Virus record (IMG/VR): IMGVR_UViG_3300045996_000607
Location: 22,292-86,291 of that record
Origin: a virus
Strand: one strand, 5' to 3'
DNA: 64,000 bases
The notes beneath the pieces are model-generated. The model saw only the letters and a list, made by a program, of their open reading frames with translations, was not told the origin of the DNA and made no database searches. This document shows, piece after piece, positions 1,793 through 64,000 of the stretch. A program made the position numbers and the translations under genes. Every line of letters begins with the position of its first letter. Within the stretch, counting starts at the first letter, position 1.

Positions 1793-2450
1793 GGTCCACC
1801 CCCTGCCCGGCGTCGGGCGTGAAGGCGGCGAGGATGGCGTCGGCAAGTTCAAAGCACTGCTGCTCGACGCGCTCAGGCACACATTCGAGGATGCGCTTTT
1901 CCCATTCGGCTTGCGTCCACGAGGCATTTGGAGGCCCACGGTGATCTAGACCGCTGCAAGTACCGAGGCCGTGCAGCGCGGCTATACGAGCAATCGCCTC
2001 CCGCCTGTCCGACGCGCTGGACGGTTGCGGGGCTGCGAGGGCTGCGCTGTTGCTTTCGCCCCAAGTATCAGCCTTGCCCTGCGTCGCGATGCGGACGACG
2101 CCATTGGTCGGCACGTCAGCAGGACGCCAGATGCATCCGCAACCATGGCACAGGTGCGAACGATGCGGCGGGTTCGACCCATCAGGCGTGCGCTCGTCGG
2201 GCTCGTCAATATGTTGGAGCCCACACTTCGGGCAGAACAGCAGCATATCGACCGGCGGAACCTCACTCCGGGGCGCGGCGGCGAAGGCGAGGGCGTCAGC
2301 GGCTTGCTTCACGATCGCCACCGCATCCTCGATCACATGCGGCTCGCTCTCGCATTGGAGGACGGCAACGACGTGCTCCCGCAACACCATGGGAAGGCGC
2401 TCAGGCTCTACATGCGCACGCTCGCGCGCATCGCTGTTATTGGTCGGCAT
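1785..2450 (-). CDS. Phage zinc-ribbon protein, 221 aa
   Basis: The centre has a CPKCG pair at about residues 73-77, a conserved PPHRSHLCHGCG second half-site at about 95-106, and an IWRPADV stretch. Together these look like a zinc ribbon found in many phage hypothetical proteins. The flanks are low in complexity. The start overlaps the upstream methyltransferase stop (2437-2450). DNA or RNA binding is likely for such a ribbon but not shown. Confidence 0.75.
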   Translation of the reverse strand: MPTNNSDARERAHVEPERLPMVLREHVVAVLQCESEPHVIEDAVAIVKQAADALAFAAAPRSEVPPVDMLLFCPKCGLQHIDEPDERTPDGSNPPHRSHLCHGCGCIWRPADVPTNGVVRIATQGKADTWGESNSAALAAPQPSSASDRREAIARIAALHGLGTCSGLDHRGPPNASWTQAEWEKRILECVPERVEQQCFELADAILAAFTPDAGQGVDHG

Positions 2451-2919
2451 GGTCAGCGTCCTTCATGAAGACGATCCAGTGCGTCTTGGCCGCGCTTCCC
2501 GACCGGTGTCCGAACAACGGCTTCTCGGGCGTCATCGAAAGCACGGTCTTCACCGACACCCGATGCTCGTTCCATTTGAAGATCAGCGTTCCACCGGGGC
2601 GCAGGACGCGGAAGCATTCGGCAAATCCGGCCGTGATCTGCTCGCGCCAGCCGGGTTCTAGCCGCCCGTACTTCTGCGCCATTGCGCTATTCACACCATT
2701 GAAGGTGTGCGGCGGATCGAACACGACGAGAGAGAATGCGTCGTCTTCGAACGGCAGGTCAGTGAAGTCGCCGAGCACGTCGGGATTGACCACCACTTCG
2801 CGTCCGCGTGGATCGGTGCAGACCTCCCGCCGCTTGTCGAGAAAGAGTGCGCGCGCATCCTCCTTGTCGAACCAGAACATGCGCGAACCGCAGCAGGCGT
2901 CTAGAACACGCGCGCTCAT
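2437..2919 (-). CDS. Class I SAM-dependent DNA methyltransferase (DPPH type)
   Basis: 160 aa. Motif I is the VLDACCG stretch near the N-terminus; the catalytic motif IV is FDPPH at about residues 67-71; a VLRPGG turn follows near 107. This is the minimal Rossmann methyltransferase layout of phage enzymes with amino-methyl (N4/N6) DPPx motifs. It is shorter than restriction-modification enzymes and has no visible target-recognition domain, so specificity cannot be read. It is one of three methyltransferases in phage A and probably protects phage DNA from host restriction. Confidence 0.75.
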   Translation of the reverse strand: MSARVLDACCGSRMFWFDKEDARALFLDKRREVCTDPRGREVVVNPDVLGDFTDLPFEDDAFSLVVFDPPHTFNGVNSAMAQKYGRLEPGWREQITAGFAECFRVLRPGGTLIFKWNEHRVSVKTVLSMTPEKPLFGHRSGSAAKTHWIVFMKDADHADQ

Positions 2920-6299: not shown

Positions 6300-6451
6300 C
6301 GTACCCCGGCCAGCGCCCCACCCCCTACGTCGCCCCCCGTCATCGCCGCCGCCGCGTGCCGTGGCTCGCGATCATCTGGCTGTCTGCGTTGGTTGCATGG
6401 CCGGTCGTGGAGATCGCGGTGGACTGGTTCTCGCGCGGTGGTGCGCTGTGA
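6296..6451 (+). CDS. Small single-pass membrane protein (51 aa)
   Basis: GTG start in a GTGA overlap. A basic patch (RHRRRRVP) is followed by one membrane segment (about residues 20-38) and a short outer tail ending near the next GTGA overlap. It occupies the same operon slot as the 70-aa membrane protein at 51599-51811 in phage B. Confidence 0.65.
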   Translation: MTYPGQRPTPYVAPRHRRRRVPWLAIIWLSALVAWPVVEIAVDWFSRGGAL

Positions 6452-7062
6452 GCGCTTGGGAAGCCCCCGGCGCCACTGACGAGTGGTATACGCCCAAGGC
6501 CGTCTTCGACGCGCTCGGGTGCGACTTCGACATGGATGTCGCTGCGCCCATGTGCATCCCCAGCTACATCGGCGATCGACTGCGCTGCACGACGCCGAGC
6601 GGTGGTCGCCGCTGGCTGTGGAAAGACAGCCTCGGAACCGAGTGGTCGGGCTTCGTCTGGATGAACCCACCCTTCGGCGGTCGCAACGGTCTGGTCCCGT
6701 GGCTCGACAAGTTCTTCCAGCACGCCAACGGCATCGCGCTCGTTCCGGACCGCACCAGTGCGCTGTGGTTCTGGGATGCATGGCTCAAGGCCGATGCTGT
6801 CCTGTTCACCCGCAAGATCCGCTTCCTCCGCCCCGACGGCACGGAAGGCAGACAGCCCAGCTGCGGCACCGCATTGCTCGCTGTCGGTCCTCAGGGTGTC
6901 CGCGCTCTCAACCGTGCCGCCGATTCCGGTTTCGGCATCCTCGCAACACCCTGCCCGCCAATGCGCCACGACACCACCGACCACCGCCTCCACACGGGCG
7001 GCAACTTCCTCGGGGCTGATCAGGGCGGCGGGTTCATTCATCTTGGGAGTGCTTGTAAGTGA
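6448..7062 (+). CDS. Phage DNA N-6-adenine methyltransferase (Dam family)
   Basis: 204 aa from GTG 6448 (GTGA overlap). Hallmarks of phage N6A methyltransferases: a DEWYTP start (about 11-16), the FDMDVAA segment, and the catalytic NPPFGG motif at about 73-78. It transfers methyl from SAM to adenine in DNA. The last about 25 residues (LHTGG...GADQGGGFIH) also occur in the 49-aa product at 51808-51957 in phage B, which lacks the enzyme domain. A long opposite-strand reading through this tail is treated as a shadow. Confidence 0.85.
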   Translation: MSAWEAPGATDEWYTPKAVFDALGCDFDMDVAAPMCIPSYIGDRLRCTTPSGGRRWLWKDSLGTEWSGFVWMNPPFGGRNGLVPWLDKFFQHANGIALVPDRTSALWFWDAWLKADAVLFTRKIRFLRPDGTEGRQPSCGTALLAVGPQGVRALNRAADSGFGILATPCPPMRHDTTDHRLHTGGNFLGADQGGGFIHLGSACK

Positions 7063-7535
7063 GCAACTGCAGCAATGATGTCCAAAGCTCGCCCGTCGTG
7101 TCGGACGAACGTTTGCGGGACATTCTCCGCAAGGATCTCCACCGCGCGTTCAACGTGGACCACACGTTCACGCGCAAATCGTTGGCCGAAGATAGCGGCG
7201 TAAACATCTACCAGATCGACCAGATCATGTCGCGCGACGCTGGGAAAAAGCGTCGGGTCGCCATTGAGGACGCGTTCTCGCTGGCCCTCTCTCTGGGAGA
7301 TCGCACGATCGGGAAACTGATCGCGGCGCTAGGTTATGTCGGCCAGCCCGCAGACGAAGTCGTTCACAGCCAGCCGATGCAAATCGTGGCGAACGGCATG
7401 AAGCACTTCGCTATCATCGCCAACGCTGCCGCTGACAACCGCATCGACCACACGGAAGAGCGCATCACCACGGAAGCAGCGGATGCGCTGATTGCGGAGA
7501 TCCTGCCGCTGTCGAGCGCGGGGAAGTCGGCATGA
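7059..7535 (+). CDS. Putative HTH regulatory protein, 158 aa
   Basis: N-terminal helical region with an HTH-like stretch (about 37-60, TRKSLAEDSGVNIYQIDQIM) and a helical C-terminus rich in Ala. GTGA overlap with the upstream methyltransferase. In the same position phage B has 51957-52427, similar in size and layout. A CII-like or copy-control role is possible but unproven. Confidence 0.6.
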   Translation: MSNCSNDVQSSPVVSDERLRDILRKDLHRAFNVDHTFTRKSLAEDSGVNIYQIDQIMSRDAGKKRRVAIEDAFSLALSLGDRTIGKLIAALGYVGQPADEVVHSQPMQIVANGMKHFAIIANAAADNRIDHTEERITTEAADALIAEILPLSSAGKSA

Positions 7536-8227
7536 GCGGCGTTGTCCTCTCACTGTTCCCGGGAATAGGCCTGTTGGATCAAGCCTTCGAGGAAGAGGGC
7601 TTTTGCGTCGTTCGCGGTCCCGATCTGCTGTGGGGCGGCGATATATGCGCCTTCCATCCCCCTGCGGGGGTCTTCGCCGGCATTATCGGCGGACCTCCCT
7701 GCCAAAGCTGGTCGGGGCTCGGGAACGTCAATCGTGCCCGGTGGGGCGACCAATGCATGATGCCCGACCGCATCCCGGAGTTCGCCCGGTGTGTGAATGA
7801 GGCCCAGCCTTACTGGTATCTCATGGAGAACGTCGCGGCTGCACCGGCTCCGGACACCCCGGGCTATTCGTCGGTGCAGCGTCTTTGCAACAACCGGTGG
7901 TGTGGCGGCGAGCAAAACCGCGAGAGGAAGTTCACCTTCGGCGCTCGCGTAGCCGTGGACGCCTTCCACATCGACGGAGAGGCCCTGCTCCCGGGGAATT
8001 ACAAGCCGGCCGTCATCAGCAGCGGGCAAGCCGGGAAAGGCGGCCACCGTGCCTCGATCGCCGACATGGCGAGGGACCAAGGATTAGACGCAGGCCGGTT
8101 CGTCAACAGCCCGTTCACGACCACAGAGCTTCGCCGCGCGATAGCGAACGGGGTGCCGATTCCGATGGGCCGCGCCGTTGCCCGAGCCGTCAATCGCTCA
8201 TTGGCTCAGCATAGGGCCGCAGCATGA
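7532..8227 (+). CDS. C5-cytosine DNA methyltransferase
   Basis: 231 aa. Motif I is LFPGIGLLD (about 8-16), the catalytic Cys is in GGPPCQSWSG (Cys57), and motif VI is MENV (about 98-101). Residues near 110-135 replace a long target-recognition domain, so this is a short phage form. It makes 5-methylcytosine with SAM. With the N6A enzyme two genes upstream and the DPPH enzyme at 2437, phage A carries three DNA methyltransferases. Confidence 0.85.
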   Translation: MSGVVLSLFPGIGLLDQAFEEEGFCVVRGPDLLWGGDICAFHPPAGVFAGIIGGPPCQSWSGLGNVNRARWGDQCMMPDRIPEFARCVNEAQPYWYLMENVAAAPAPDTPGYSSVQRLCNNRWCGGEQNRERKFTFGARVAVDAFHIDGEALLPGNYKPAVISSGQAGKGGHRASIADMARDQGLDAGRFVNSPFTTTELRRAIANGVPIPMGRAVARAVNRSLAQHRAAA

Positions 8228-12744: not shown

Positions 12745-12778
12745 CCGCCATCATCGCAGCAATCGTGGCGAGAGTAGC

Positions 12779-13218: not shown

Positions 13219-13221
13219 GTG

Positions 13222-13362: not shown

Positions 13363-13379
13363 AATCGAAAGGACGGGAT

Positions 13380-14110: not shown

Positions 14111-14275
14111 ATGGTTAGCCTTCTGATCACGCTGCTGGTCGCAATCCTCATCGTGGCCGTGCTGTTCTACGCCGTCGACTTGCTCGGCATGGACGGGCGC
14201 CTGTCGAACCTGCTGAAGCTTGTCGTGATCGTGCTCGCACTGGTCGTCGTGCTTCAGCGGAGCGGTGTGGTCTGA
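14111..14275 (+). CDS. Two-helix small membrane protein (54 aa)
   Basis: ATG 14111 with GGAG 8 nt before it. Two hydrophobic segments (about 3-22 and 33-49) separated by a short DLLGMDGRLSNLLK hairpin. The layout matches the small Thivi_2564-like membrane protein family. It is absent from the same place in phage B. A holin-like role is possible but unsupported. Confidence 0.65.
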   Translation: MVSLLITLLVAILIVAVLFYAVDLLGMDGRLSNLLKLVVIVLALVVVLQRSGVV

Positions 14276-14278
14276 GCC

Positions 14279-14590: not shown

Positions 14591-15860
14591 GGTCTTCGAA
14601 CCGCTTCTCGCCGATGCGCGGGACAAGGCGGCATACGGGGGCCGCGGCTCAGGGAAGTCGCATTTCTTCGGCGGGCTAATGGTTGAGGACTGCCTTGCCG
14701 AGCCCGGACAGGCAGCGGGCGAGGGCCTGAGGTGTGTTTGTATCCGCGAGGTGCAGAAGGATCTGGCGCAGTCGAGCAAGGCGCTGATCGAGCAGAAATT
14801 GAGCGACTTCAGGCTGACCCAAGCGGATGGGTTCAAGGTGTTCCGGGACGTGATCACCACCCCGGGTGATGGCATTATCATCTTCAAGGGCATGCAGGAC
14901 TACACCGCTGACAGCATCAAGTCGCTGGAAGGGTTCAAGCGGGCATGGTGGGAAGAGGCCCAAGGCGCCACGCAGCATTCGATCAACCTGCTTCGCCCGA
15001 CCATTCGTGCGCCTGGCTCCCAGCGGTGGTGGAGCTGGAACCCGCGACGGCCGATTGATCCCGTCGACCAGATGTTTCGCGGTGCGGAGAAACCAACCGG
15101 CGCCGTCGTGGTGCAGGCGAACTGGCGGGACAATCCGTGGTTCACCTCGGAGCTTGAGCAGGAGCGCGTTGATGGTCTCCGGATGCAGCCCGACCAGTAC
15201 GGGCACATCTGGGACGGCGAGTACGTGACGGTTGTGGAAGGCGCATACTTCGCCAAGGAACTGAATGCAGCGAAGGCCGCAGGCCGGATTGCCAACGTCG
15301 CGCCGGACCCGCTGATGACCTACCGCGCGTTTTGGGACATCGGCGGCACGGGCGCACGGGCCGATTCCTGCTCGATCTGGATAGCCCAGTATGTGGGCCG
15401 CGAGATCCGCGTGCTGGATTATTACGAAGCGCAGGGACAGCCACTTGCTACCCACGTTCAGTGGTTGCGCGAGGAAGGCTATGGTAAGGCCCTTTGTGTG
15501 TTGCCGCACGATGGTGAGACTAACGATCGGGTCCACGATGTCAGCTTCGAAAGCGCATTGAAGGCTGCCGGGTTTGATGTCGTCGTAATACCCAATCAGG
15601 GCAAGGGCGCGGCCAAGATGCGGGTTGAATCGGCACGCAGGCTATTCCCGTCGATCTGGTTCAACAGGGCAACCACCGAGGGCGGCCGACAGGCGCTTGG
15701 CTGGTATCACGAGAAGAAGGACGAGGCGCGCAACATCGGCCTCGGCCCGGAGCACGACTGGTCCAGCCACGGGGCTGATGCCTTCGGCCTGATGTGCGTC
15801 GCCTATGAGGCGCCGAAGCAGGCACAGACAATCAATTACGAGAAGAGGGGCATCGCATGA
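14556..15860 (+). CDS. terL: Large terminase subunit of phage A
   Basis: PBSX/Terminase_3-type ATPase-nuclease, about 434 aa. Walker A is GGRGSGKS, Walker B lies in RAWWEEAQ, and the nuclease part has FWDIGG and HDWSSHGADAFG with the acidic metal ligands. No ATG fits; TTG 14556 gives the family length and overlaps the small-subunit gene, but the start is uncertain. It cuts and pumps DNA into the prohead. The phage B enzyme (58920-60191) is homologous. Confidence 0.9.
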   Translation: MSGRTLSIPTAEVFEPLLADARDKAAYGGRGSGKSHFFGGLMVEDCLAEPGQAAGEGLRCVCIREVQKDLAQSSKALIEQKLSDFRLTQADGFKVFRDVITTPGDGIIIFKGMQDYTADSIKSLEGFKRAWWEEAQGATQHSINLLRPTIRAPGSQRWWSWNPRRPIDPVDQMFRGAEKPTGAVVVQANWRDNPWFTSELEQERVDGLRMQPDQYGHIWDGEYVTVVEGAYFAKELNAAKAAGRIANVAPDPLMTYRAFWDIGGTGARADSCSIWIAQYVGREIRVLDYYEAQGQPLATHVQWLREEGYGKALCVLPHDGETNDRVHDVSFESALKAAGFDVVVIPNQGKGAAKMRVESARRLFPSIWFNRATTEGGRQALGWYHEKKDEARNIGLGPEHDWSSHGADAFGLMCVAYEAPKQAQTINYEKRGIA

Positions 15861-17941
15861 GGGAGGACGCCCCCGATCTGCTCGCATACCTGCAGTCCGA
15901 GGCCGAGCGCGCCAAGGATACATCGCTGGACGATCAGCGGGCCGTCGCCCTCGATTATTACAACGGCGAGCTATTCGGTGATGAGCTTGAGGGGCGCTCG
16001 CAGCTGGTGACGCGCGATGTTGCCGAAGTGGTCGACCAGCAGGTTATCGAAGTCCTGCGCACGATGGTGTCCGGCGATCATGTCGTTGAGTTCGACGGCG
16101 AAGGCGAAGATGGCGAGGACTTCGGCCAGCACGCGACAGAGGCGGTCCAATACCAGTTCATGCGCAAGCAGAACGGCTATCGGGTGCTTCACGACAGCCT
16201 GAAGGCAGGCCTGCTCGAGAAGACCGGGATCGTAAAGAGCTGGGTGCAGCGCAAGTTCAAGATCGAGACGGGCGAAGTGCCGATCGACATGCTGCTCGAG
16301 GTGCAGGCCAACCCGGAGTTTGGGGAGGTGCTGGCCGCCGAACCAATCGATGAGCTGGACGAGTTCGAAGGGCTGTGGAAGGTCCGTGTCCGCGTTGAGC
16401 AGCCGCCGCAGTTTCGCGATATGGCCGTTCCGAACGAGGAGTTCCGGATTGCGCCGGATGCGCGGTCACTCGATGATGCTGCCTACATTGCCCATGTGAC
16501 GGAAAAGAGCCTGTCCGAACTGATCGAGATGGGCTTCCCGATTGACAAGGTGAATGAGCTGTGGGGCGACAACCCCTCCTCTACCACTCTTGCAAACGCT
16601 CGCGATGCCGGCGCTACGAGCCGTGAGGTAGCGCGGCCCGGCAACCAGCGCCGCCTGTGGCTCTATGAAGAATATGTCCGCTACGATGCCAATGGCGACG
16701 GCTACGATGAGTTGCTGTGCGTGCATCGCATCGGCACGACGATCCTTTCGGTCGAGGAAGTAGAGGAGCAGCCATTCTCGGGATGGACCCCCTTCCCGAT
16801 GCAGCACCGGTTCATTGGCCAGTCATCTGCCGACAAGACCATGGACATCCAGCGCACGCGATCGGTGATGTTGCGCCAGGCGATGGACAATCTGTACCTG
16901 TCCAACTCGCCGCGGGTAGCTGTCGATGAAGTGGGCATGACGGCGGATACGATAAGCGACCTCCTGACCGTCCGTCCCGGCGCGCTGGTGCGCTACAAGG
17001 GTGGTCAGGCGCCCGTACCCTTTGCGGTTCCGTTCGTTGCCGGCCACGCCTTTGAGGCCATGGAGATGATGACCGCCGAGCGCGAGTCCCGCACGGGCGT
17101 CACGCGGCACAATCAGGGGCTGAACCCCGACACGCTGAACAAGACGGCTTCGGGCATGGCGATGCTGCAGCAGGCCGGCGATCAGGTGGGCGAATATGTC
17201 GCTCGCAACTTCGCGGAAGATCTGGTCGCCCCGATGTTCGCCAAGCGCTACCGGCTGATGCGCAAGTTCGGGCAACCGTTCAGCATGAAGATCGACGGTA
17301 CGCGGGTGGAGATCGACCCGCGCACATGGCCCGAAGAGATCGACATGCTGATCAACGTTGGGCTCGGCACCGGCCGCAAGGATCAGCGCCTCGCCTACCG
17401 TGTCCAGCTGCTCGACTTCCAGAAGGAGGCCTATGCTGCCGGCTCACCGCTGGTGAATGAGGACAAGATCTTCAACAATGTCCGCGGCATGATCAAGGAT
17501 GCGTCGCTGGGCAGCCCCTCCGACTATCTGGTCGACCCAGAAACGCTGAAGGACCCTGAAACCGGCGAGATGCCGCAGCGTCCTGACCCGCAGGCGGCAC
17601 AGGCGGAGGCGCAGGCAGCGATTGAGGCCCAGAAGCTGGCAGGCGAGCAAGCCGAACAGGAGCGGCAGGCGCAGATCAAGATGCGGTCGGTCGAGATTGA
17701 CGGCGAGATCCGCACCATTGGTGCGCAGGCGGACGCGGAGACCAAGCGGGCATCGGCCGAACTGGACGCACAGCTGCGCCGCGACAAGGCGGCGGAAGAG
17801 GCGCGGCTTGCTCAGGACAAGATGATATTCGAGATGGGAATGGCCGAGGAGCGGTTCGAGTTCGAGAAGACCTTGAAGCAGGCACCGCAAGAGGGTTCGG
17901 GCGTTAACGGCTTCAGGCCGGGCGGAGATCTCGCGCAATGA
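15857..17941 (+). CDS. Portal protein of phage A (P22-like family)
   Basis: 694 aa. Conserved segments include the N-terminal ALDYYNGELFGDEL, SRDV-type TRDVAEVVDQQV, IGQSSADKTMDIQRTRSVML, TGVTRHNQGLNPDTLNKT and a long Gln/Glu/Ala-rich C-terminal helix (about 575-680). It forms the DNA-entry ring at a capsid vertex. Related to, but far from, the 625-aa phage B portal at 61058-62935. ATGA overlaps with both neighbours. Confidence 0.9.
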   Translation: MREDAPDLLAYLQSEAERAKDTSLDDQRAVALDYYNGELFGDELEGRSQLVTRDVAEVVDQQVIEVLRTMVSGDHVVEFDGEGEDGEDFGQHATEAVQYQFMRKQNGYRVLHDSLKAGLLEKTGIVKSWVQRKFKIETGEVPIDMLLEVQANPEFGEVLAAEPIDELDEFEGLWKVRVRVEQPPQFRDMAVPNEEFRIAPDARSLDDAAYIAHVTEKSLSELIEMGFPIDKVNELWGDNPSSTTLANARDAGATSREVARPGNQRRLWLYEEYVRYDANGDGYDELLCVHRIGTTILSVEEVEEQPFSGWTPFPMQHRFIGQSSADKTMDIQRTRSVMLRQAMDNLYLSNSPRVAVDEVGMTADTISDLLTVRPGALVRYKGGQAPVPFAVPFVAGHAFEAMEMMTAERESRTGVTRHNQGLNPDTLNKTASGMAMLQQAGDQVGEYVARNFAEDLVAPMFAKRYRLMRKFGQPFSMKIDGTRVEIDPRTWPEEIDMLINVGLGTGRKDQRLAYRVQLLDFQKEAYAAGSPLVNEDKIFNNVRGMIKDASLGSPSDYLVDPETLKDPETGEMPQRPDPQAAQAEAQAAIEAQKLAGEQAEQERQAQIKMRSVEIDGEIRTIGAQADAETKRASAELDAQLRRDKAAEEARLAQDKMIFEMGMAEERFEFEKTLKQAPQEGSGVNGFRPGGDLAQ

Positions 17942-18246
17942 CCGACGCTGTTGCATCTGAGCGCATCGATCGCGGTCAGCGGGCCACATCGGCGCTGCGT
18001 GAGTTCCTCGATCCGGCGTTCGATGTGGTGATTACCGACTATATGTCCCGCCTGACGCAGATTGCCGCCGAGACGCCGTGGGATACGGGTAAAATCATCA
18101 AGCTGGCGTCGGCCGCGAAGATCGCCGAGCAGGTGCGGGTGCAGATCAAGTCGCTCGTTGCTGACGGTGAGGTAGCGCTGGATGGTGTGCAGCGCGCCCG
18201 GCAGATCGAGGGCATGTCGACCGAGCGGAGGAAGTGGCTCGGGTGA
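17938..18246 (+). CDS. Hypothetical structural-operon protein, 102 aa
   Basis: Helical; resembles small phage proteins placed after portal (ALREFLDPAFDVVITDYMSRL...AKIAEQVRVQIKSLVADG). Probably a head-assembly accessory. It also has some likeness in pattern to 23454-23702. Confidence 0.6.
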   Translation: MTDAVASERIDRGQRATSALREFLDPAFDVVITDYMSRLTQIAAETPWDTGKIIKLASAAKIAEQVRVQIKSLVADGEVALDGVQRARQIEGMSTERRKWLG

Positions 18247-18437
18247 CCATCCGCGAGGACATCTCCGACGCGGGGCTGATGCTGTTCGATGGCCAGCCGA
18301 CTGATGGGCAATCAGGCAAGAGCTTGATCCTCACGGACGGCAAGCACTTCGAGATTGTCGAGTTCGATCCTGACAGGGAAAATGAGGAAGCGGTGCTGGC
18401 CGACATGCTGGCGCGGTTCCGGCAACAGCTGAACTAG
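18243..18437 (+). CDS. Hypothetical 64-aa protein
   Basis: GTG 18243 overlaps the upstream stop as GTGA. Acidic, small alpha/beta protein with no known family. Followed by a terminator. Confidence 0.6.
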   Translation: MTIREDISDAGLMLFDGQPTDGQSGKSLILTDGKHFEIVEFDPDRENEEAVLADMLARFRQQLN

Positions 18438-18462
18438 ATTCCCGCACCAGCGGGTGACGCAA

Positions 18463-18485
18463 GGGCTGCTTCTGCGGCCCTTTTT
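18463..18485 (+). terminator. Terminator inside the late operon, before the scaffold gene
   Basis: GGGCTGC-TTCT-GCGGCCC stem with one G.U pair, followed by TTTTT. It lies between the 64-aa gene and the scaffold GTG at 18502, so it must be read through or escaped in late infection. Confidence 0.75.
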
Positions 18486-18501
18486 CTTTGGAGCAACACA
18501 G

Positions 18502-19443
18502 GTGACCCAGCTTGCAGAAGCAGTCGCCGACGCTCCCGTTCTCGATGATGCGAACGGTGCGACGGCTGATCAGACGAACGCGCCCCTCGATCCCGCATCG
18601 ATGTATCCCGAGGATGCGAAGGAACCAGATGCCGGTGATGAGCCGGAGCAGTCGGACGATGAGCCCGTCGATGACGACCAGACCGACGAAGTGGACGAAC
18701 CGGAAGCGGCCATTGATCCACCCGTTAGCTGGGACAAGGAAGCCAAGGCGAAGTTCGCCCAGCTACCTCCTGACATGCAGGCCTTTCTCGCGGAGCAGGA
18801 CGCCCACCGCAATCGGCAGGTCACCGATGTCACCACCCGCGCAGCGGAGGCCCAGAGGCAGGCGCAAGCCGAACTTCAGGCCAATGTCGCGGAGAGTCAG
18901 CAGTACTACGCCCAGCAAGTTGAGTTGGTCGCACAGCAGTTCCTGCCGCCTGAGCCGAACCCGGCCCAGTTTCAGGACATGCAAAGCTACCTGTACGCCA
19001 AGGACCAGTATGGGCAGGCGCTCGCCCAGCATCAGCAACTGATGCAGCACGCCAGCCAGATCCGTTCACAGGCGGAGCAGCAGCTTCAGCAGCAGCAAAT
19101 CCAGATGCTCCAGCAGGATGCAAAGCGCGTCTCGATCGAGCTGCCAGAGCTGAACGACCAGACCCAATACCAGCAGCTGGTACAGGACCTGACGCCGATC
19201 GCCAAAGAGCTTGGCTACGACGACGAACGCATTGCCCAGGCATGGCCTTCCGACATCCTCGCGATGAAGCGGGTGAAGGGCTGGAAGGACAAGGCCAGCA
19301 AGTGGGACTCGCTCCAGGCTCGCAAGATGGAAGGCGTTCGCTCGGCGAAAGCCCTTCCGAAAGTGTCCGCGCCCGGCGCCGCGGGGACAGCAGCGAGAGC
19401 CGCACCAGTCCCCATCGCCAGGCAGCTTTACCCGAACGACTAA
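18502..19443 (+). CDS. Scaffolding protein 1 of phage A
   Basis: 313 aa from GTG 18502 (TTGGAG upstream); an ATG-open frame upstream runs through the terminator. A strongly acidic N-terminus is followed by a Gln/Ala-rich coiled coil (about 115-230) and a basic C-terminus, the usual layout of internal scaffolds whose basic tail binds the capsid protein. It directly precedes capsid protein 1. Confidence 0.8.
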   Translation: MTQLAEAVADAPVLDDANGATADQTNAPLDPASMYPEDAKEPDAGDEPEQSDDEPVDDDQTDEVDEPEAAIDPPVSWDKEAKAKFAQLPPDMQAFLAEQDAHRNRQVTDVTTRAAEAQRQAQAELQANVAESQQYYAQQVELVAQQFLPPEPNPAQFQDMQSYLYAKDQYGQALAQHQQLMQHASQIRSQAEQQLQQQQIQMLQQDAKRVSIELPELNDQTQYQQLVQDLTPIAKELGYDDERIAQAWPSDILAMKRVKGWKDKASKWDSLQARKMEGVRSAKALPKVSAPGAAGTAARAAPVPIARQLYPND

Positions 19444-19455
19444 CAGGAGGCCGCA

Positions 19456-20487
19456 ATGGCGACCATTGGCAATTCCTTTCTGGGAATCATCGACCACTAC
19501 AAGCGGGTAGACCGCAACGGCAACATCATGCCGATCATCGAGGCGCTGCATCAGCTCAATCCGCTCATGCAGGACGCCCACGTCATCGAGGCGAATAACG
19601 GCTCGAGCCACCGTTCCACGATCCGCACGGGGCTTGGTTCCGTTGCGTGGGGCAAGCTCTATCAGGGCATCCTGCAGAGCAAGTCGACCACCCAGCAGGT
19701 GGAAGACACGACCGGCTTTGTCGAGCGCTTGTCGACCATCGACACCCGCTTCCTGAAGCTGGTGAAGGACCCCGCCGGCGAGCGCATGGCGGAAGCCAAC
19801 GCGGCGCTGGAAGCCATCTCGCAGGATGTGCAGTCCAACTTCTTCTACGCGGACTCGAACATCACGCCTGAGCGCTTCAAGGGCCTGGCTGCACGCTACA
19901 ACGCGATTGCGGCGGGCGGTGCAGCCGCTGCCCAGATCGTGGACGGCGGCGGTGTCGGCTCTGACAACACGTCCGTCTGGCTCGTGGGCTGGGGCGCTCC
20001 CGGCACGTCGCTGATCTACCCCGAGGGTACGACCGGCGGCATCCAGCGCGAAGACAAGGGCGAGCAGCGCACGCTCGATGACAACGGCATGCCGTACTTC
20101 GTGAAGGAGGAATATTTCTCCCAGCACGTCGGCGTGAAAGTCGGCGACTGGCGCTACAACGTCCGCATCGCCAACATCGACGTGTCCAACATGCTCGCCG
20201 GCACGGTCGACGTGTATGCGTTGCTGCGGCAGGCCTATTACAAGGCCCATGAGCGCCGCAACACGCGGATGCAGAACGGTGGCATGGTGCAGGGCGTCAA
20301 GCCCGTCATCTACGCAAACCGCGACTTCTTGCAGGCGCTCGATGCGCAGGCGACTAACGACGGGGCGAGCGACAACTTCGTTCGCATGACCCCGGACGAG
20401 ATCGCCGGCAAGGAAATCCCGACCTACCGCGGCATCCCGATCCGCGAGACGGACGCCCTGATCAACGCGGAAGCCCGCGTGGTCTGA
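19456..20487 (+). CDS. Major capsid protein 1 (BPP-1 / Gp7 type)
   Basis: 343 aa behind a strong AGGAGG site. Family features: HRSTIRTGLGSVAWGKL near residue 55, the VEDTTGFVE segment, SNFFYADSNITPERFKGLAARYN in the middle, and a C-terminal YRGIPIRETDALI strand. These match the Gp7-like HK97-fold capsid proteins of Bordetella BPP-1-type podoviruses. Scaffold 1 is upstream and the Bbp16-type cement downstream, a complete head module. Confidence 0.85.
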   Translation: MATIGNSFLGIIDHYKRVDRNGNIMPIIEALHQLNPLMQDAHVIEANNGSSHRSTIRTGLGSVAWGKLYQGILQSKSTTQQVEDTTGFVERLSTIDTRFLKLVKDPAGERMAEANAALEAISQDVQSNFFYADSNITPERFKGLAARYNAIAAGGAAAAQIVDGGGVGSDNTSVWLVGWGAPGTSLIYPEGTTGGIQREDKGEQRTLDDNGMPYFVKEEYFSQHVGVKVGDWRYNVRIANIDVSNMLAGTVDVYALLRQAYYKAHERRNTRMQNGGMVQGVKPVIYANRDFLQALDAQATNDGASDNFVRMTPDEIAGKEIPTYRGIPIRETDALINAEARVV

Positions 20488-21325: not shown

Positions 21326-23374
21326 ATGAATGTGCCCGATCTGCGCGCTGCTGTGTCTGTAAATGGCGGAACCCCCACCCGCTATGATATCGTCGGGCTG
21401 TTTCGTCAGCTGGTCACAGCCTATGGTGGGACACCGACGAAATGGTCCATCCGTGAACTTCTGCGGGAGGCGGTGACCGCAGCCGGCGGCACGCCGACGC
21501 AGTGGTCACAGGTTGGGCTCATGCGCGAGCTGGCGGCGGCCTTGGGGGTTGATCCGGGCGAGTATGCCGGGCGCACTCTTTCAGAGATTATCGCAGAGAC
21601 TGCGAAGGGCGGCACCCCCACGCCTACGCCCACTCCCGGCGTGGCTGCTCCGAACTATGCGACGGTCGCCAGCGCCCCGAACGTCGAAGTCTTCCCGCAC
21701 CTGACGACGTTCACCGAGAGCGGCGGGCGCGTGACCGGGTTCACCGATCAGAAGGGCCTGCCCTTCACCTCGCCCGACACAAACGGCCCCGTACTGATGA
21801 CGGATCTGCTGGGCCGCAAGTTCCTGCGCTTCACGGTGTTCACCGGCATTCAGGGAGCATGGTTGCGCAACGCCACGCTTGCGGCGCTGGACACCTATTG
21901 CGCGACATGGATGCTCGTTGGGCGCGTCCACCTTGCCTACAAGCAGGCATTCGTCAGTCACGGCAACAACGGCGCGACGCCGGCCACGAACGGATCTGCA
22001 CAGCTCGGCTGCTCGGGCGGGACCAACGTCATCCCGGGCGCCCCGATGGTCTCGGGCATGACGCCGCTGATCAACACCGCTGTCGCCAACGCTGCCAAAC
22101 TGGAGACCGGCTGCCAGCTTCAGGTCATCGGCAACGCGATCATGGCGAGCGACGGTGTGGGCGGGGCGACCACCTCGGGCACGCTGCACCACTGGCTCAA
22201 CAACGAGGTCGCAAGCCTCGCGATCAGCGGGCAACGCAATGTCGGCCGCACTGGCTTTGAAGTCGGGCGGCGGGCGAATGGCTCGGGCTCGACGTTCGAG
22301 TACGCGTATCTGGACCTCTACTACCTCGCTGGCTGGACGACGGGGCAGTTCACCAATGCGAACGTGCTGGCGCAGTCGACACTGATCGCAGGCATTCTGA
22401 CCAGCAACTGGGCGATCCCGGCGATCACCGATAGCACTATCCTCGGAGGCGATAGCCGCACCGAGCAGAACCAGACCAATGGCGTGTCCATGGCGATGAT
22501 GCTGACCGAGCCGGGTGGCGCAAATGCCCTCGCCACCAGTCACCGCGTGATCAATCTCGGCTATTCGGGCAAGGGATGGCAGACGCAGTACAACGCCACC
22601 GTCCGTCCGACCTCGCCCTATGGCTTCCTGCTGGGCGGCGGCAAGGATCGCGCGGTGTTCGGCGTCGGCCCCGGCGTGAACGACATGACTGCGGCGTCCG
22701 GCTGGCCCAAAACCAACGCAACTGCCGATCCCGGTGCCCTCACGGCTAACGATACCGTGGCGAGAGCGAACGAAGTATACGATACGGCGGGCACTCTGGA
22801 CTCGGTTTTCACCGGCTCGATCAGCGCCGCGGTCCTCACCGTCACTGCCGTGACCAGCGGCGCTATCCGCGTGGGCATGTCGCTCGATGTCAACGGAGGC
22901 ACCCTGTTCATCAACTCGCTTGGCACGGGAACGGGCGGAACTGGAACCTACAACCTGAACACTTCCGCCACGGTGGCATCGCAGACGATCACCGCGCGCC
23001 AGGGTGATGCACGTCGCACCGTGACCAACCTGCTTACGCTCGGCTGGAAGGTAGCGGTTTCGGCAGAGATCAAGAACAACGGCGCGAACGACGCCGGGAG
23101 CCCCTCACCCCTCGACACGCTGCGCGGCAAGCTCCTTGCCATGGCGGCTGATGTTCAGGCCGGCCCGGGTCAGACCTATGACGGCAAGTTCCGCGCGTTC
23201 GACAATCGCGAAATCGTGGTCGGCGGGCTGAAGATCTTCGGCACCGATGCTGTATTCAGCACCGGCTATTACACCGATGGCGTGCATCCGAACGACACGG
23301 GGCGTCCGTTCCTCGTGAGCGGCGGAACCACCCCGCAGCACGGCATCAAGGCCAACATCGAGGCGCTCGTCTGA
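21326..23374 (+). CDS. Virion SGNH/GDSL hydrolase with repeat N-terminus
   Basis: 682 aa from ATG 21326. Residues about 10-80 are three tandem 21-residue repeats (GGTPT...LLRELxxAxGG type). A Thr-Pro linker (about 96-104) leads to a lectin-like beta domain and an SGNH hydrolase with Ser377 (GGDSR), Asn452 (GVND) and Asp651/His654 (DGVHPN). A beta-rich insert (about 490-560) splits block III from block V. Likely a head- or tail-attached esterase acting on a surface glycan. The middle is almost identical to 62935-64000, but there it follows the portal gene directly. Confidence 0.8.
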   Translation: MNVPDLRAAVSVNGGTPTRYDIVGLFRQLVTAYGGTPTKWSIRELLREAVTAAGGTPTQWSQVGLMRELAAALGVDPGEYAGRTLSEIIAETAKGGTPTPTPTPGVAAPNYATVASAPNVEVFPHLTTFTESGGRVTGFTDQKGLPFTSPDTNGPVLMTDLLGRKFLRFTVFTGIQGAWLRNATLAALDTYCATWMLVGRVHLAYKQAFVSHGNNGATPATNGSAQLGCSGGTNVIPGAPMVSGMTPLINTAVANAAKLETGCQLQVIGNAIMASDGVGGATTSGTLHHWLNNEVASLAISGQRNVGRTGFEVGRRANGSGSTFEYAYLDLYYLAGWTTGQFTNANVLAQSTLIAGILTSNWAIPAITDSTILGGDSRTEQNQTNGVSMAMMLTEPGGANALATSHRVINLGYSGKGWQTQYNATVRPTSPYGFLLGGGKDRAVFGVGPGVNDMTAASGWPKTNATADPGALTANDTVARANEVYDTAGTLDSVFTGSISAAVLTVTAVTSGAIRVGMSLDVNGGTLFINSLGTGTGGTGTYNLNTSATVASQTITARQGDARRTVTNLLTLGWKVAVSAEIKNNGANDAGSPSPLDTLRGKLLAMAADVQAGPGQTYDGKFRAFDNREIVVGGLKIFGTDAVFSTGYYTDGVHPNDTGRPFLVSGGTTPQHGIKANIEALV

Positions 23375-40720: not shown

Positions 40721-40963
40721 TCATTTGGCATTCTCGTGTTGAGCCGGCCACCGCTCCGGGTGCTCGAGCGCGTCGCGAAGGTCCGCCGCCATCTGCGGGT
40801 TCTCGTGCTGAATACTGGCGGCATAAGTCTCGATGGCGCGCCAAGCGTGAATGTCGCCGGCAAAGTCGAGCACGATGTAGCGGGCCTCGGGTCGGCAGGG
40901 TTTTCCGTCCGTGCGGGTGACGTTGAAGCGAGCCTCGAACCCGCCGTTGGTTTCGCGTGTCAT
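40721..40963 (-). CDS. Hypothetical 80-aa phage protein
   Basis: Starts MTRETNGGFEARFNVTRTDGKPCRPEARYIVLDFAGD, a small beta domain, with a helical C-terminus (HAWRAIETYAASIQ). ATGA overlap with the TGT-like gene. Confidence 0.6.
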   Translation of the reverse strand: MTRETNGGFEARFNVTRTDGKPCRPEARYIVLDFAGDIHAWRAIETYAASIQHENPQMAADLRDALEHPERWPAQHENAK

Positions 40964-41676
40964 GCTGCCATAGCCTCCAGTCTGTCGGCGTAGTTTCGGC
41001 GCCCGCGCCACGCGGCATGGGCTTCAACGAACAGGTCCGCCTGCCTGTCCTGCCAGTCGTATCGGTGACCGTTCTGCGCGAGGCTGGTGCTGTCACAGCT
41101 CACAAACGGATAGTCGCTCCCGACCAGCACGCCGCGCAGCATGTGCAGCGGGTGCCAGCGGTTGCCCATCAGGGCCGCAACTTCGTCCATTTTCCAGCGG
41201 TATGCATCGCAGCCGACCGGCTCGAGTTTGGGGTCGCCAATCCAACCAAGGCAAACCCTGTCGTAGCGCTCGCAGAGACGGCCTAGACGATCAATGGGGC
41301 CGTCCATATGCCAGACCGGCGCACCCCGTGACGTGCCGTGCGGCCACTCGTTCAGCAGCCCATCGTTGAGCTGGGACGGAGCGGCGGGTTTGTCGGGGAT
41401 GATGGCCCAGCGACCGGGTTGCCAGAGCCGTTGATCGAGCCACGCGTAATATGCTGACCAATCCTGCCGCCCCGCATCCATAGGATCGGCACCAGCCCGA
41501 ACGGCCTGCATCCAGTAGGAGAACGCGCCGTTGTCGTACATCAGGAACGCGCAAAGCTGCTCCGCCAGCGTCGTCTGATCGGGCCGGAAGAAGCTGACGC
41601 ACGCGGCCCGCTGGCGCATAACCTGCTCGAACGCCGCGTTTGGCGTCATGGGAGTGCCGTGGTAGCAGAGCGCCAT
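40960..41676 (-). CDS. TGT/DpdA-like TIM-barrel enzyme (candidate DNA deazaguanine transglycosylase)
   Basis: 238 aa from ATG 41676. FMYDNGAFSYW-type LMYDNGAFSYWMQ, GRWAIIPDKP, APVWHMDGPIDRL, YDRVCLGWIGDP, WHPLHMLRGVL and FVSCDSTSLAQNG occur in the order of strands in a TIM barrel, with acidic residues at strand ends as in tRNA-guanine transglycosylases. Phage DpdA proteins put 7-deazaguanines into DNA. Pairing with the QueD-like gene just upstream (TGATG overlap) supports this. Family assignment is by pattern only; it could also be an uncharacterised relative. Confidence 0.5.
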   Translation of the reverse strand: MALCYHGTPMTPNAAFEQVMRQRAACVSFFRPDQTTLAEQLCAFLMYDNGAFSYWMQAVRAGADPMDAGRQDWSAYYAWLDQRLWQPGRWAIIPDKPAAPSQLNDGLLNEWPHGTSRGAPVWHMDGPIDRLGRLCERYDRVCLGWIGDPKLEPVGCDAYRWKMDEVAALMGNRWHPLHMLRGVLVGSDYPFVSCDSTSLAQNGHRYDWQDRQADLFVEAHAAWRGRRNYADRLEAMAA

Positions 41677-41984
41677 CACCGCAGCGCCTCCGGGACGGGC
41701 CACTCTGCGCCCATGCGCTCACGGTCGCGCTTGACGACAACGCGGACGCAATTGACCAGCGAGCCCACTGCGCGGGCGATGTCCTCGTTCCACTCAATCT
41801 CAGGCGGGAGCTGCTTGCCTTCCCAGTTGGCACACATGGCGTCGAGCATCGCCAGATAGCAGCGCGCGTCGGTGTGCCGCCGAACCCGGAACGCCGCCTC
41901 TACCTCCCACCTATGGACGTGAGGCTCAGCCTCCGCGCACAGATGCGACGCGGTGAACGAGCTCCAGACGGTAATGAGGGCCAT
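41676..41984 (-). CDS. QueD-like 6-carboxy-tetrahydropterin synthase
   Basis: 102 aa from ATG 41984, where family similarity begins. FTASHL and HVHRWEVEAAF supply the three zinc His residues; Cys in HLCAEAEP is placed like the catalytic Cys; LPPEIEWNEDIAR and VVVKRDRERMGAEW match the C-terminal half of the short phage QueD type. QueD makes carboxy-tetrahydropterin on the way to preQ0. No folE, queE or queC is in the window, so the host or a part outside must supply them. An in-frame extension to 42119 looks non-coding. Confidence 0.6.
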   Translation of the reverse strand: MALITVWSSFTASHLCAEAEPHVHRWEVEAAFRVRRHTDARCYLAMLDAMCANWEGKQLPPEIEWNEDIARAVGSLVNCVRVVVKRDRERMGAEWPVPEALR

Positions 41985-42122
41985 CTCCGCCGTTTCGTGT
42001 TTTCCACTCGCGCCCAGAACACCAGCCTTTTCAATGGCCGGTTTTCCAAGAACGCAAGGTGACTCTGGCGGATTTTCGTGCATGACACCTATCGCAATTT
42101 TAAGTGGATATCGACGCATATA
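41985..42122. other. Gap between QueD-like gene and integrase, candidate attachment region
   Basis: 138 bp of lower GC than the flanks, directly downstream of the integrase stop. Phage attachment sites usually lie beside int, so the phage A/phage B joint is most likely here. No tRNA fragment or obvious direct repeat can be seen inside the window. Confidence 0.4.
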
Positions 42123-43184
42123 CTAGGCAGACTTTGGGGTGTTTTCCAAGCGTTTTCGATTGCCGCTCTTTGTTCCCTCCCATTTCAGGACCGCCGCAGA
42201 GCCGAGACGCTTGTTGTTCCGGCGCCGTGCGTAGTGCTCGACCATCCCGAGCGATTGCCCTGTGATCGATGAAACCTCGCCCGTTGAGCAGCCGGCCTCG
42301 AGCAGGGCATTCACAGCATTCTTGCGGAGGCCGTGGGGCACCACCTCGTAGCTGAGTGTGCGGGCAAACCGTTGCAGGTGCTTGCGCAGCGTGTCGACCT
42401 TCATTGGCCGGCCATTGCGACCATAGAGGATCGTCAGGGCCTCGCGCGGGGTTGCTTCCAGCAGCGCCTTCAGGTCGCTGTGTAGCTGGATATCCAGCTC
42501 CTTGCCGGTCTTCTGCTGCTTCACATAAACGAAGCCGTCGCGGATATCGGACCATCGCATCTTGCACACGTCGCCGATCCGCTGGCCGGTATAGTAGAGC
42601 AGGCCCACCGCGAGCCCGACGTTTGCATCAGCAAGCGCGGCCTCAATCAGATCCTCGGGCCATGGCTCGTGCTCCTCCTCCGACTTCTCGCCGAAGTCGA
42701 TGCCATCGGTAGGGTCGATCTTGATCCATTCCCGCTTGATCGCGAACCTCATCAGGTTCTGCATCACGGCGAGCACCATCTTTGCGGCGCCCGGTGTTGC
42801 TGACATCTTGTCGAGGAGCGCCACGATGTCGGAGCGCTCAACTTCAGCAAGCGGTGCATCCCCCATCTCGGCCTCGATCCGCCTGATGTAGATCAGGTAG
42901 GTGTGCTGCGTGCCGTTGCTGCGGCGGGTGAACTTCTCGCTCTTCTGGTACGCGCGGCTCAGGTCGGCAACCGTAGTGTCGCTCTTGAGCGCAGCCCGCG
43001 ACGTGCGAGCGGCCAGCAGCGAAGCATACACACCGCCATAGCTCGGGTCCGACTTCTTGGGCAGGCGCTTGTAGACACGCTTGCCGGCGACCGTCTGACC
43101 GGTGTCGAAATACTCGTAGTCATTGCCCCGCGCGCGGACCTTCTTGATGAAGTCGGGATATGAGGCGACCAGTTTACGCGGCAT
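42123..43184 (-). CDS. int: Tyrosine integrase of phage B
   Basis: 353 aa. N-terminal SAM-like core-binding domain (about 70-155); catalytic domain with Arg202 (TGQRIGD), Lys225 (QQKTGK), His284 and Arg287 (HGLRK), Gln310 in the place often held by His/Trp, and Tyr318 (VEHYARR). It integrates and excises phage DNA. The start overlaps the excisionase-like gene by 11 nt. It is the only integrase in the window; phage A's should lie to the left. Confidence 0.9.
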   Translation of the reverse strand: MPRKLVASYPDFIKKVRARGNDYEYFDTGQTVAGKRVYKRLPKKSDPSYGGVYASLLAARTSRAALKSDTTVADLSRAYQKSEKFTRRSNGTQHTYLIYIRRIEAEMGDAPLAEVERSDIVALLDKMSATPGAAKMVLAVMQNLMRFAIKREWIKIDPTDGIDFGEKSEEEHEPWPEDLIEAALADANVGLAVGLLYYTGQRIGDVCKMRWSDIRDGFVYVKQQKTGKELDIQLHSDLKALLEATPREALTILYGRNGRPMKVDTLRKHLQRFARTLSYEVVPHGLRKNAVNALLEAGCSTGEVSSITGQSLGMVEHYARRRNNKRLGSAAVLKWEGTKSGNRKRLENTPKSA

Positions 43185-43407
43185 TGTAGAGCTTCGATTT
43201 GCTGCGCCAGTTCGGCGTGGTGTCGTTGGTCAGGCGGTTCAGGTGCTCATCGATCGCCACGCGGCTCCAATGCTCACTGTTGCCCAGCTTGACCGGTCCC
43301 GGCAGCCGGGCTGCGGCAACCTCGCGCTCGAACTCCGCCGCGGTCAAGTCGCAGTACAGGGCAGCCGTTGCCCGGCGCATCATTCGAGGCCAGCCTGGTG
43401 CCGTCAC
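43174..43407 (-). CDS. Excisionase-like winged-helix protein
   Basis: 77 aa. YCDLTAAEFEREVAAARLPGPVKLGNSEHWSRVAIDEHL is an AlpA/Xis-type motif, where a helix-turn-helix is followed by a W-x3-x-D-wing. Directly before int, as is usual for xis. ATGA overlap upstream. Confidence 0.75.
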   Translation of the reverse strand: MTAPGWPRMMRRATAALYCDLTAAEFEREVAAARLPGPVKLGNSEHWSRVAIDEHLNRLTNDTTPNWRSKSKLYNAA

Positions 43408-43799
43408 GGCGTTCCCTCCCCCACCCCCGCGCTGCCGGTCTTGCCGGGGCTGAGGGCCTGCAGGATCTCCCGGCTTTCGGTGCAGAACCAGTCGTAGGCG
43501 CCCTGCCAGTCGGCGCGCTCTATATCCTCGTCGTCCATCTCGGATGTCGGGCGCTGTTTGGCCATTATGCGCAGCCGCTCGATCGCGTCAGAATCCGTCT
43601 CCGGATCGAGCGTCGATGCGACCGGGCGGGTGTTGAGGCGATGGCGGGCGATCTTCTGCATCTTCTCCCAATGGTCGAACTCGCCATTAAGGATGCGCTG
43701 AAACCCGCCCTCATTCGGCACCACGTCGAAGCCCATCAGGAAAATGAAAAGCTCCCGATCAGCCCGCACCACCTCTGCCGGCGCGCTTGTTTCAGTCAT
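43404..43799 (-). CDS. Hypothetical 131-aa protein
   Basis: Contains a FLMGFDVVPNEGGFQRILNGEF segment and many acidic residues. No family recognised. Overlaps neighbours by 4 and 8 nt. Confidence 0.6.
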   Translation of the reverse strand: MTETSAPAEVVRADRELFIFLMGFDVVPNEGGFQRILNGEFDHWEKMQKIARHRLNTRPVASTLDPETDSDAIERLRIMAKQRPTSEMDDEDIERADWQGAYDWFCTESREILQALSPGKTGSAGVGEGTP

Positions 43800-57844: not shown

Positions 57845-57892
57845 GCGCAGCGCGAACACGCCACACGGGCTTTAAAATCGAAAGGACGGGAT

Positions 57893-58438
57893 ATGGGTCG
57901 CCACGCAAAACGCAAGCCGATGAAAGCCAAGGGTCCTCCGATCATCGTGGTTACCGGCATCGACGCCACGCCCGAACGGCTGGCAAAGGACCCGGACAAC
58001 GACATTGTCCCAGCCGGCATCGAGAAGCTTGGGGAGCGGCAGGGTCGTGCCAGGCAGTTCCGCGCAACCCACCTCGATCGCCTGCACAAGTCGGGGAACC
58101 TGAGCTACCTGCAGTGGTACGCCGGCAACGTCTACCGTGAGACGCATGCTCGCTGCCACTTCGCCTTGTCGGTGGTCGCAAGCTACGGCGAGCGCACCGG
58201 AGCGGCGGAGCATCCCGGCGCGTTCGGCTTCGGGTTGCCGCGGCAAGAAGCGCAGGTCAGGGCCCGCGACCAGATGCGGCTCATGCGCAGCGAGTTCCCC
58301 CGCGAGCTGCAGGGCTTCATGGACCGTCTGCTGATCCACGACAGCATGCCGCGCTATGCGGGGCGGGCTGCGATGCGGAACATGGCCGAGATCCGCAAAG
58401 GGCTGGATGCGCTCGCGCTGTATCTGCGCTTGACGTGA
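57893..58438 (+). CDS. Conserved last early gene of phage B, candidate late regulator
   Basis: 181 aa, differing at only a few residues from 13380-13925 (for example VVMV to IIVV near residue 17). Codon-level differences are mostly silent, so the protein is under strong selection. The following junction is also conserved. Confidence 0.7.
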   Translation: MGRHAKRKPMKAKGPPIIVVTGIDATPERLAKDPDNDIVPAGIEKLGERQGRARQFRATHLDRLHKSGNLSYLQWYAGNVYRETHARCHFALSVVASYGERTGAAEHPGAFGFGLPRQEAQVRARDQMRLMRSEFPRELQGFMDRLLIHDSMPRYAGRAAMRNMAEIRKGLDALALYLRLT

Positions 58439-58654
58439 CCGGAAAATTCGGGCATGGAATCCCACAAGTTGGCGAATTGCGCCAATAAGGGCTCGCTTCG
58501 GCGGGCCTTTCTTGTTTCTGGCGCCCTCCCTTCGCCAGACCCCGCCCGACCCCAATCCGCAGACGCACTGATGCACCAGCTGCGCGAAGGCCGTCGGGCG
58601 GGAATATTCACAGACTGAAAGCGGCGACCCGCATGCGGACCCGTGGAGAAAGTC
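58439..58654 (+). promoter_or_regulatory. Conserved early-late junction of phage B
   Basis: 216 bp. It keeps the TTGGCG-N5-CGCCAA repeat (58469-58485), the terminator and the block at about 58545-58602 found in phage A. A 15-codon ATG frame at 58571 is not supported. GGAG before ATG 58655 starts the late genes. Confidence 0.5.
58489..58511 (+). terminator. Terminator after early operon B
   Basis: Same GGCTCGC-TTCG-GCGGGCC stem as phage A, followed by TTTCTTG, a weaker T run. Confidence 0.7.
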
Positions 58655-62935: not shown

Positions 62936-64000
62936 TGGGGCGGCTGTCGCTCGGCGTCCGCCTTGGCATGGGCCCGCATGGCAACGGCTCCAGCGGCGGC
63001 ACCCCCACGCCTACGCCTACGCCCACTCCCGGCGTTGCCGCGCCAGATTATGCGACTGTCGCGAGCGCCCCAAACGTCGAAGTATTCCCGCACCTGACGA
63101 CGTTCACCGAGAGCGGTGGGCGCGTGACCGGGTTCACCGATCAGAAGGGCCTGCCCTTCACCTCGCCCGACACAAACGGCCCCGTGCTGATGACGGATCT
63201 GCTGGGCCGCAAGTTCCTTCGCTTCACAGTGTTCACCGGCATTCAGGGCGCCTGGCTGCGCAACGCCACGCTTGCGGCGCTGGACACCTATTGCGCGACA
63301 TGGATGCTCGTCGGTCGTGTCCACCTTGCCTACAAGCAGGCATTCGTCAGTCACGGCAACAACGGCGCGACGCCGGCCACGAACGGATCTGCACAGCTCG
63401 GCTGCTCGGGCGGAACCAACGTCATCCCCGGAGCTCCGATGGTCTCAGGCATGACACCGCTGATCAACACCGCTGTCGCCAACGCTGCCAAACTGGAAAC
63501 CGGCTGCCAGCTTCAGGTCATCGGCAACGCTATCATGGCGAGTGATGGTGTGGGCGGGGCGACCACCTCGGGTACGCTGCATCACTGGCTGAACAACGAG
63601 GTCGCCAGCCTTGCGATCAGCGGGCAGCGCAATGTCGGCCGCACTGGCTTTGAAGTCGGGCGGCGGGCGAATGGCTCCGGATCCACGTTCGAGTACGCCT
63701 ATCTGGACCTCTACTACCTGGCCGGCTGGACGACCGGGCAGTTCACCAATGCGAACGTGCTGGCGCAGTCAACACTGATCGCAGGCATTCTGACCAGCAA
63801 CTGGGCTATTCCGGCGATCACCGATAGCACGATCCTGGGAGGTGACAGCCGCACCGAGCAGAACCAGACCAACGGCGTGTCCATGGCGATGATGCTGACC
63901 GAGCCGGGTGGCGCAAATGCCCTCGCCACCAGTCACCGCGTGATCAATCTCGGCTATTCGGGCAAGGGATGGCAGACGCAGTACAACGCCACCGTCCGTC
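62935..64000 (+). CDS. Virion SGNH hydrolase of phage B (cut by window end)
   Basis: ATG 62935 in a TGATG overlap with portal; 355 codons visible. A short distinct N-terminus (MGRLSLGVRLGMGPHGNGSS) replaces the three repeats of the phage A protein; then the Thr-Pro linker and a domain almost identical to 21326-23374, up to and past GGDSR. Asn and Asp/His blocks lie outside the window. Confidence 0.8.
   Translation, partial: MGRLSLGVRLGMGPHGNGSSGGTPTPTPTPTPGVAAPDYATVASAPNVEVFPHLTTFTESGGRVTGFTDQKGLPFTSPDTNGPVLMTDLLGRKFLRFTVFTGIQGAWLRNATLAALDTYCATWMLVGRVHLAYKQAFVSHGNNGATPATNGSAQLGCSGGTNVIPGAPMVSGMTPLINTAVANAAKLETGCQLQVIGNAIMASDGVGGATTSGTLHHWLNNEVASLAISGQRNVGRTGFEVGRRANGSGSTFEYAYLDLYYLAGWTTGQFTNANVLAQSTLIAGILTSNWAIPAITDSTILGGDSRTEQNQTNGVSMAMMLTEPGGANALATSHRVINLGYSGKGWQTQYNATVR

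Follow-up and report, generated by a model that had tools for sequence, protein, structure and literature searches.

A QueD-like gene paired with a dpdA-like gene beside a phage integrase: a candidate deazaguanine DNA-modification cargo with frameshifted relatives

Organization of the Locus

The window analyzed here is a stretch of 64,000 nucleotides (positions 22,292 to 86,291 of the IMG/VR virus record IMGVR_UViG_3300045996_000607), and it encodes a QueD-like protein and a DpdA-like protein whose genes are joined by the TGATG overlap described in the initial annotation; the coordinates confirm that one base is shared (Table 1). The description of a two-gene cassette holds in that the pair is real, but dpdA also overlaps a further open reading frame, and the run probably comprises three genes (QueD-like, dpdA, and the 80-aa ORF). 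A tyrosine integrase lies just upstream of the pair, and the three methyltransferases previously noted in the same phage DNA are all borne out by PHROGs profiles.

Table 1. Positions of the genes and overlaps discussed in the text (window coordinates).
Feature	Position	Strand	Basis or detail
QueD-like T-fold protein, 102 aa	41676..41984	-	ATG 41984, stop TGA 41678-41676
DpdA-like (TGT-like) transglycosylase, 238 aa	40960..41676	-	phrog_887, barrel model, invariant Asp; start ATG at 41676, directly at the QueD-like stop; ORF end 40960
TGATG, QueD-like stop and dpdA start, one base in common	41674..41678	-	sequence
Third ORF, 80 aa, ATGA overlap with the dpdA stop	40721..40963	-	ORF list, sequence, phrog_9572 7e-14
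Tyrosine integrase adjoining the pair	42123..43184	-	PF00589 1.7e-18, phrog_1 1.5e-40
DNA methyltransferase	2437..2919	-	phrog_954 2e-71
DNA methyltransferase	6361..7062	+	phrog_111 1.1e-21
DNA methyltransferase	7532..8227	+	phrog_116 2.1e-13

A terminal repeat of 127 bases (record bases 1-127 equal window 63874-64000) and further repeated stretches (window 21608-22607 with 62995-64000, and 13335-14097 with 57848-58609) occur in the 86.3-kb record. The record holds two related phage genomes and two terminases, which may reflect either the joining of two phages during assembly or a genuine double prophage. The region shared with the second phage has 94.9% DNA identity over 1482 bases, including the integrase (window 41987-43468 repeats L164:16239-17720), and stops at 41987, three bases ahead of the QueD-like start codon. 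Because the identity breaks at this point, the pair occupies a cargo slot that has the integrase on one side and the lysis genes on the other. In the second phage, a TnpB/Cas12f-like transposase with Cas12-type matches fills this slot between lysis genes and integrase (L164:13921-15141, i.e., record bases 13921-15141). The phage carrying the pair is temperate, and its hosts are probably Sphingomonas-like bacteria.

Profile searches of the record gave no match to the QueD family (PF01242) or to FolE (PF01227), and tblastn with QueC, QueE, and canonical QueD found nothing across the window and record bases 1-20000. These results agree with the earlier remark that folE, queE, and queC do not occur near the pair. 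The locus is therefore distinct from a full phage preQ0 pathway (folE-queD-queE-queC-dpdA), since none of folE, queE, and queC was found in the phage, whose record may itself be incomplete or composite.

The DpdA-Like Protein

In PHROGs, the 238-aa protein falls in the phage DpdA family phrog_887 (E=1.3e-34, residues 9-212); it is a relative of the DpdA of Salmonella phage 7-11, with 38% identity. It has no sequence match in Pfam, NCBIfam, or the PDB; the DpdA alignment profile gave only chance matches to PDB sequences, and a PADLOC search returned nothing useful for either protein of the pair. The AlphaFold model, built from 68 relatives, is a beta/alpha (TIM) barrel (pLDDT 89) for which the top structural match is Cap10 (Z 13.5), followed by archaeal, bacterial, and human tRNA-guanine transglycosylases (TGT; Z about 13, 213-220 residues aligned). 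Three aspartates, D48 (DNGAFS), D95 (PD), and D195 (DST), are invariant in the 68-sequence alignment, and the order of the motifs suggests that D48 and D195 are the counterparts of the catalytic aspartate pair in TGT. Assignment to the DpdA family is thus well supported by the profile match, the predicted barrel, and the TGT-type aspartates. The same three lines of evidence agree with the initial annotation, which had proposed a TIM-barrel transglycosylase and named the barrel and the catalytic aspartates among the features whose absence would speak against it; the model has the former, and aspartates of the TGT type are present. By analogy with phage DpdA, the enzyme would be expected to put a 7-deazaguanine into DNA.

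The QueD-Like Protein

Taken alone, the 102-aa protein has no profile match in Pfam (including PF01242), NCBIfam, or PDB sequences; six of eight close relatives match the Pfam PTPS family (PF01242; best 7.6e-7). The AlphaFold model of the protein (pLDDT 94.3) has E. coli QueD as its top PDB match (TM 0.76), and the previously noted FTASH and HVHRW motifs are both present, with zinc-binding histidines H14, H22, and H24 that are invariant in the family; E67 and E89 are nearly so. On the strength of the model and these residues, it is right to call the protein QueD-like in fold and ancestry.

The PTPS-I signature is defined as CxxxHGH (PMC5041015), and its cysteine is missing from all 31 members of the QueD-like family. 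The window copy has Glu in the Cys place, HVH for HGH (the Gly being lost), and, like L006, E-G at the site of the Asp-His dyad. It also differs from the folate-type (PTPS-III) signature ExxHGH, with Ala at that position. The signature Cys is seen in the ordinary QueDs of host genomes and at phage locus L048, and a Ser-type QueD group, without the Cys, occurs in some chromosomes and at phage locus L046. Because the Ser-type gene adjoins QueC in at least two genomes (G006 and G050), loss of the Cys alone need not be a bar to function in the pathway. With both the Cys and the Asp-His dyad gone, the chemistry of the window protein is the weakest link of the proposal made below, and it cannot be assumed that this copy produces the precursor by the usual QueD reaction. 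The earlier designation as a QueD-type precursor enzyme can therefore be kept for fold, ancestry, and zinc histidines, but not for the CxxxHGH signature and the dyad. A 2023 paper on four further deazaguanines reportedly includes an enzyme, DpdL, with a predicted activity that may bear on this protein.

Linkage of dpdA With Companion Genes

With the QueD-like family as the only query, 18 loci were recovered from viral contigs, 17 of which have an adjacent dpdA on the same strand. The pairing is far above chance, and side-by-side relatives of the two genes occur in dozens of other phages. At the sole locus lacking dpdA (L060), the neighbor of the QueD-like gene encodes a 204-aa protein (L060:3390-4001; phrog_15826) with DNGGF and APD motifs, perhaps from another transglycosylase subfamily.

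Among 113 distinct dpdA loci, a set enriched for the QueD-like gene because some loci were fetched with that gene itself, QueD-like is adjacent in 31, YhhQ in 18, and both in none. The remaining 64 have neither companion, which suggests that the helper is optional. QueD-like, dpdA, and QueE occur together at L141 and L149, L048 has QueE with a canonical QueD, and a QueD lies beside dpdA at L046. The genes that accompany dpdA thus belong to the pathway; this links the QueD-like family to the supply of deazaguanine, and it is chiefly for this reason that we favor such a role.

The YhhQ-type preQ0 transporter is a companion of dpdA in Rhizobiales and other phages (L022, L023, L039, L042, L045, L047, L131, L136, and others), never together with QueD-like. 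A strong QueC match is missing in three of seven YhhQ-type host genomes versus 0/23 others, a difference that, in a sample of few and related genomes, is suggestive of each phage bringing the companion that its host lacks.

A +1 Frameshift in Related dpdA Genes

Many relatives of dpdA are read in two frames (FRAMESHIFTED). Each of 31 distinct sequences has one shift per gene, invariably of +1 and consistent with TTT followed by C. Site 1, ATG TTT CGA just before D48, accounts for 19 of the 31 (L009, L010, L011, L014, L016, L017, L018, L031, L033, L070, L072, L101, L103-L105, L110, L111, L115, and L117); site 2, CCC or CCG, TTT, CNN just before D195, for 11 (L012, L021, L032, L102, L106, L107, L114, L116, L118, L120, and L121); and site 3, at about codon 74, for one (L034). 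The loci numbered L177-L196 are also listed among the +1-shift dpdA genes of sphingomonad-type phages. A DNA pattern search of viral contigs for the shift returned 20 contigs, all of them dpdA with the same shift; about nine are new, for a total of roughly 40 shifted dpdA genes. The unshifted pattern returned 11 contigs, all dpdA with the N-terminus and the motif in one frame. In a quick tree of modest support, the shifted state requires at least five changes, and four states require nine.

The coding signature is kept on both sides of the slip, after which the third-position difference is 0.55, versus 0.24-0.27 at positions 1 and 2. Sequencing error was considered as a source of the shifts and rejected, given the recurrence of the same shift in 20/20 pattern contigs, the presence of shifted genes in bacterial genome assemblies (L030, L031, L033, and L034), and the persistence of codon-position bias past the slip. 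At 10 site-1 loci, a stop codon lies two codons ahead of TTC in the +1 frame and no start codon intervenes, so that the part containing D48 could not be translated separately; a split gene with an internal start is thereby ruled out for these loci.

The shift site resembles that of influenza PA-X, UCC UUU CGU (PMC8310308). Sites 1 and 2 sit directly before one or the other of the two putative catalytic aspartates, and are likely programmed frameshift sites of the PA-X kind. We consider it highly probable, from the sequences compared, that the dpdA of related sphingomonad phages is made only via +1 programmed frameshifting and that the window gene is an unshifted member of the same family. The window gene is in frame at both places (ATG TAC GAC; CCG TTT GTG), and the frameshift is therefore a property of the family rather than of the window. 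A literature search found no report of such a frameshift in DpdA. The frameshifted relatives would form a rare set in which an obligatory shift has moved between sites beside two catalytic aspartates, and would allow a direct test of what frameshifting is for in a phage enzyme.

Likely Hosts and Their Queuosine Genes

Among bacterial genomes, Sphingomonas has the closest relatives of dpdA (68-73% identity), and the probable hosts of the window phage are therefore Sphingomonadaceae, a family in which related integrases also occur. Among 79 Sphingomonadaceae genomes, QueC is present in 77 and the QueD family (PF01242) in eight, and queE lies directly 3′ of queC in the genomes inspected. Such hosts should be able to finish the base, and the QueD step is the one that is not visible; if they make queuosine, they must own a substitute, and their pathway seems to use some unrecognized enzyme for this step. 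The suggestion that the pair leans on host genes is accordingly plausible, as QueC and QueE occur in the likely hosts and a recognizable QueD is mostly absent from them. The QueD-like gene was not found in 387 Sphingomonadaceae genomes, a weak result for which just 13 candidates were scored in each genome. In these hosts, it would be useful for a phage to bring its own QueD derivative.

Proposed Role of the Gene Pair

We propose that the QueD-like gene and dpdA form a small DNA-modification cargo that a temperate phage carries next to its integrase. The DpdA-like enzyme would swap some guanines of the phage DNA for a 7-deazaguanine base and thereby shield the DNA from restriction. Host QueE and QueC would complete the base, and the QueD-derived protein would assist in providing the precursor of the deazaguanine, probably by acting at the 6-carboxytetrahydropterin step or close to it; most likely hosts have no recognizable gene for this step. 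Family, fold, conserved residues, gene linkage, and host gene content are established, and from them we infer the action on DNA, the base inserted, and the step of the QueD-like protein. For the proposal as a whole, in which a deazaguanine is inserted into DNA and a QueD-derived protein helps with its supply, our estimate is roughly 55%.

It is conceivable, though doubtful, that the QueD-like protein is instead an enzyme of changed function, which carries out another reaction on a pterin or deazaguanine and provides DpdA with a different base. In 17 of 31 members, Glu or Asp stands where the Cys would be, and HGH and the Asp-His dyad co-vary in three subgroups (HVH/EG, HPH/QG, and HAH/PD) while the zinc histidines and E67 stay constant; on this view the zinc site and substrate-binding Glu residues are retained, and the family is tied to DpdA. 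Against this, the dyad is kept in 25 of 31 members, and plain QueD chemistry would fit where the gene sits with QueE (L141 and L149). We hold a similarly speculative view of the Cys-less protein as no QueD at all but a dedicated partner enzyme of DpdA, one that makes a deazaguanine outside the known set or adapts it for insertion and so would allow phages to reach a new DNA base with two genes.

A non-catalytic partner, binding the free base or the enzyme in the manner of an accessory subunit, would account for the strict adjacency and overlap with dpdA, and for a window copy that has lost its proton-relay residues and kept its binding residues. We think it improbable, as most members retain Asp-His and the gene is missing beside most dpdA genes, where a transporter or synthesis genes stand in. 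Action of the TGT-like enzyme on tRNA or protein is more improbable still. In its favor, Cap10, a TGT-family protein that binds deazaguanylated protein (PMC11996544), is the top structure, and a barrel shows no substrate; against it, the protein belongs to the phage DpdA family and deazaguanine occurs in the DNA of the phage encoding its relative.

If the proposed supply of DpdA by a QueD-derived helper is correct, deazaguanine DNA modification could be achieved with two or three short genes that draw on the queuosine synthesis of the host, and the companion gene (QueD-derived, YhhQ, or QueE) would differ between phages. The QueD-like family would also offer an experimentally accessible example of a T-fold enzyme that has lost its signature Cys and is still tied to deazaguanine work.

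Comparison With Known Systems

The window combines a small phage DpdA with a linked, Cys-less, QueD-derived partner, a variation on a kind of system already known. The pair itself is not unique to the window: Caulobacter phage DMCA has an overlapping QueD-like/DpdA-like pair near its integrase (XIJ71581.1-XIJ71580.1, annotated as 6-carboxytetrahydropterin synthase and hypothetical protein), although DpdA identity is 43% and the DMCA QueD-like protein keeps the Asp-His dyad. Relative to QueD (PTPS-I, COG0720; E. coli 4ntk/3qna), the window copy shares the T-fold, the zinc His triad, and the Glu positions, but it lacks the CxxxHGH Cys and the Asp-His dyad and is about 20 residues shorter. The YhhQ and dpdA pairs of Rhizobium phage RHph_N3_2 and Pseudanabaena phage Pam5 similarly combine dpdA with one adjacent precursor-supply gene, with the transporter in the place of QueD-like. 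Cap10 of type IV CBASS (9ntn), the closest structure, has a TGT-family barrel as well, but shares 8% identity and has its role in protein deazaguanylation in anti-phage defense. Salmonella phage 7-11, of the dpdA-only group (Hutinet et al., 2019; PMC6884629), encodes DpdA and no known preQ0 gene, and its DNA carries dADG at a low level (PMC6884629). The window phage resembles it in having a homologous TGT-like barrel and in being without folE, queE, and queC, and differs from it in the QueD-derived partner that accompanies the window gene.
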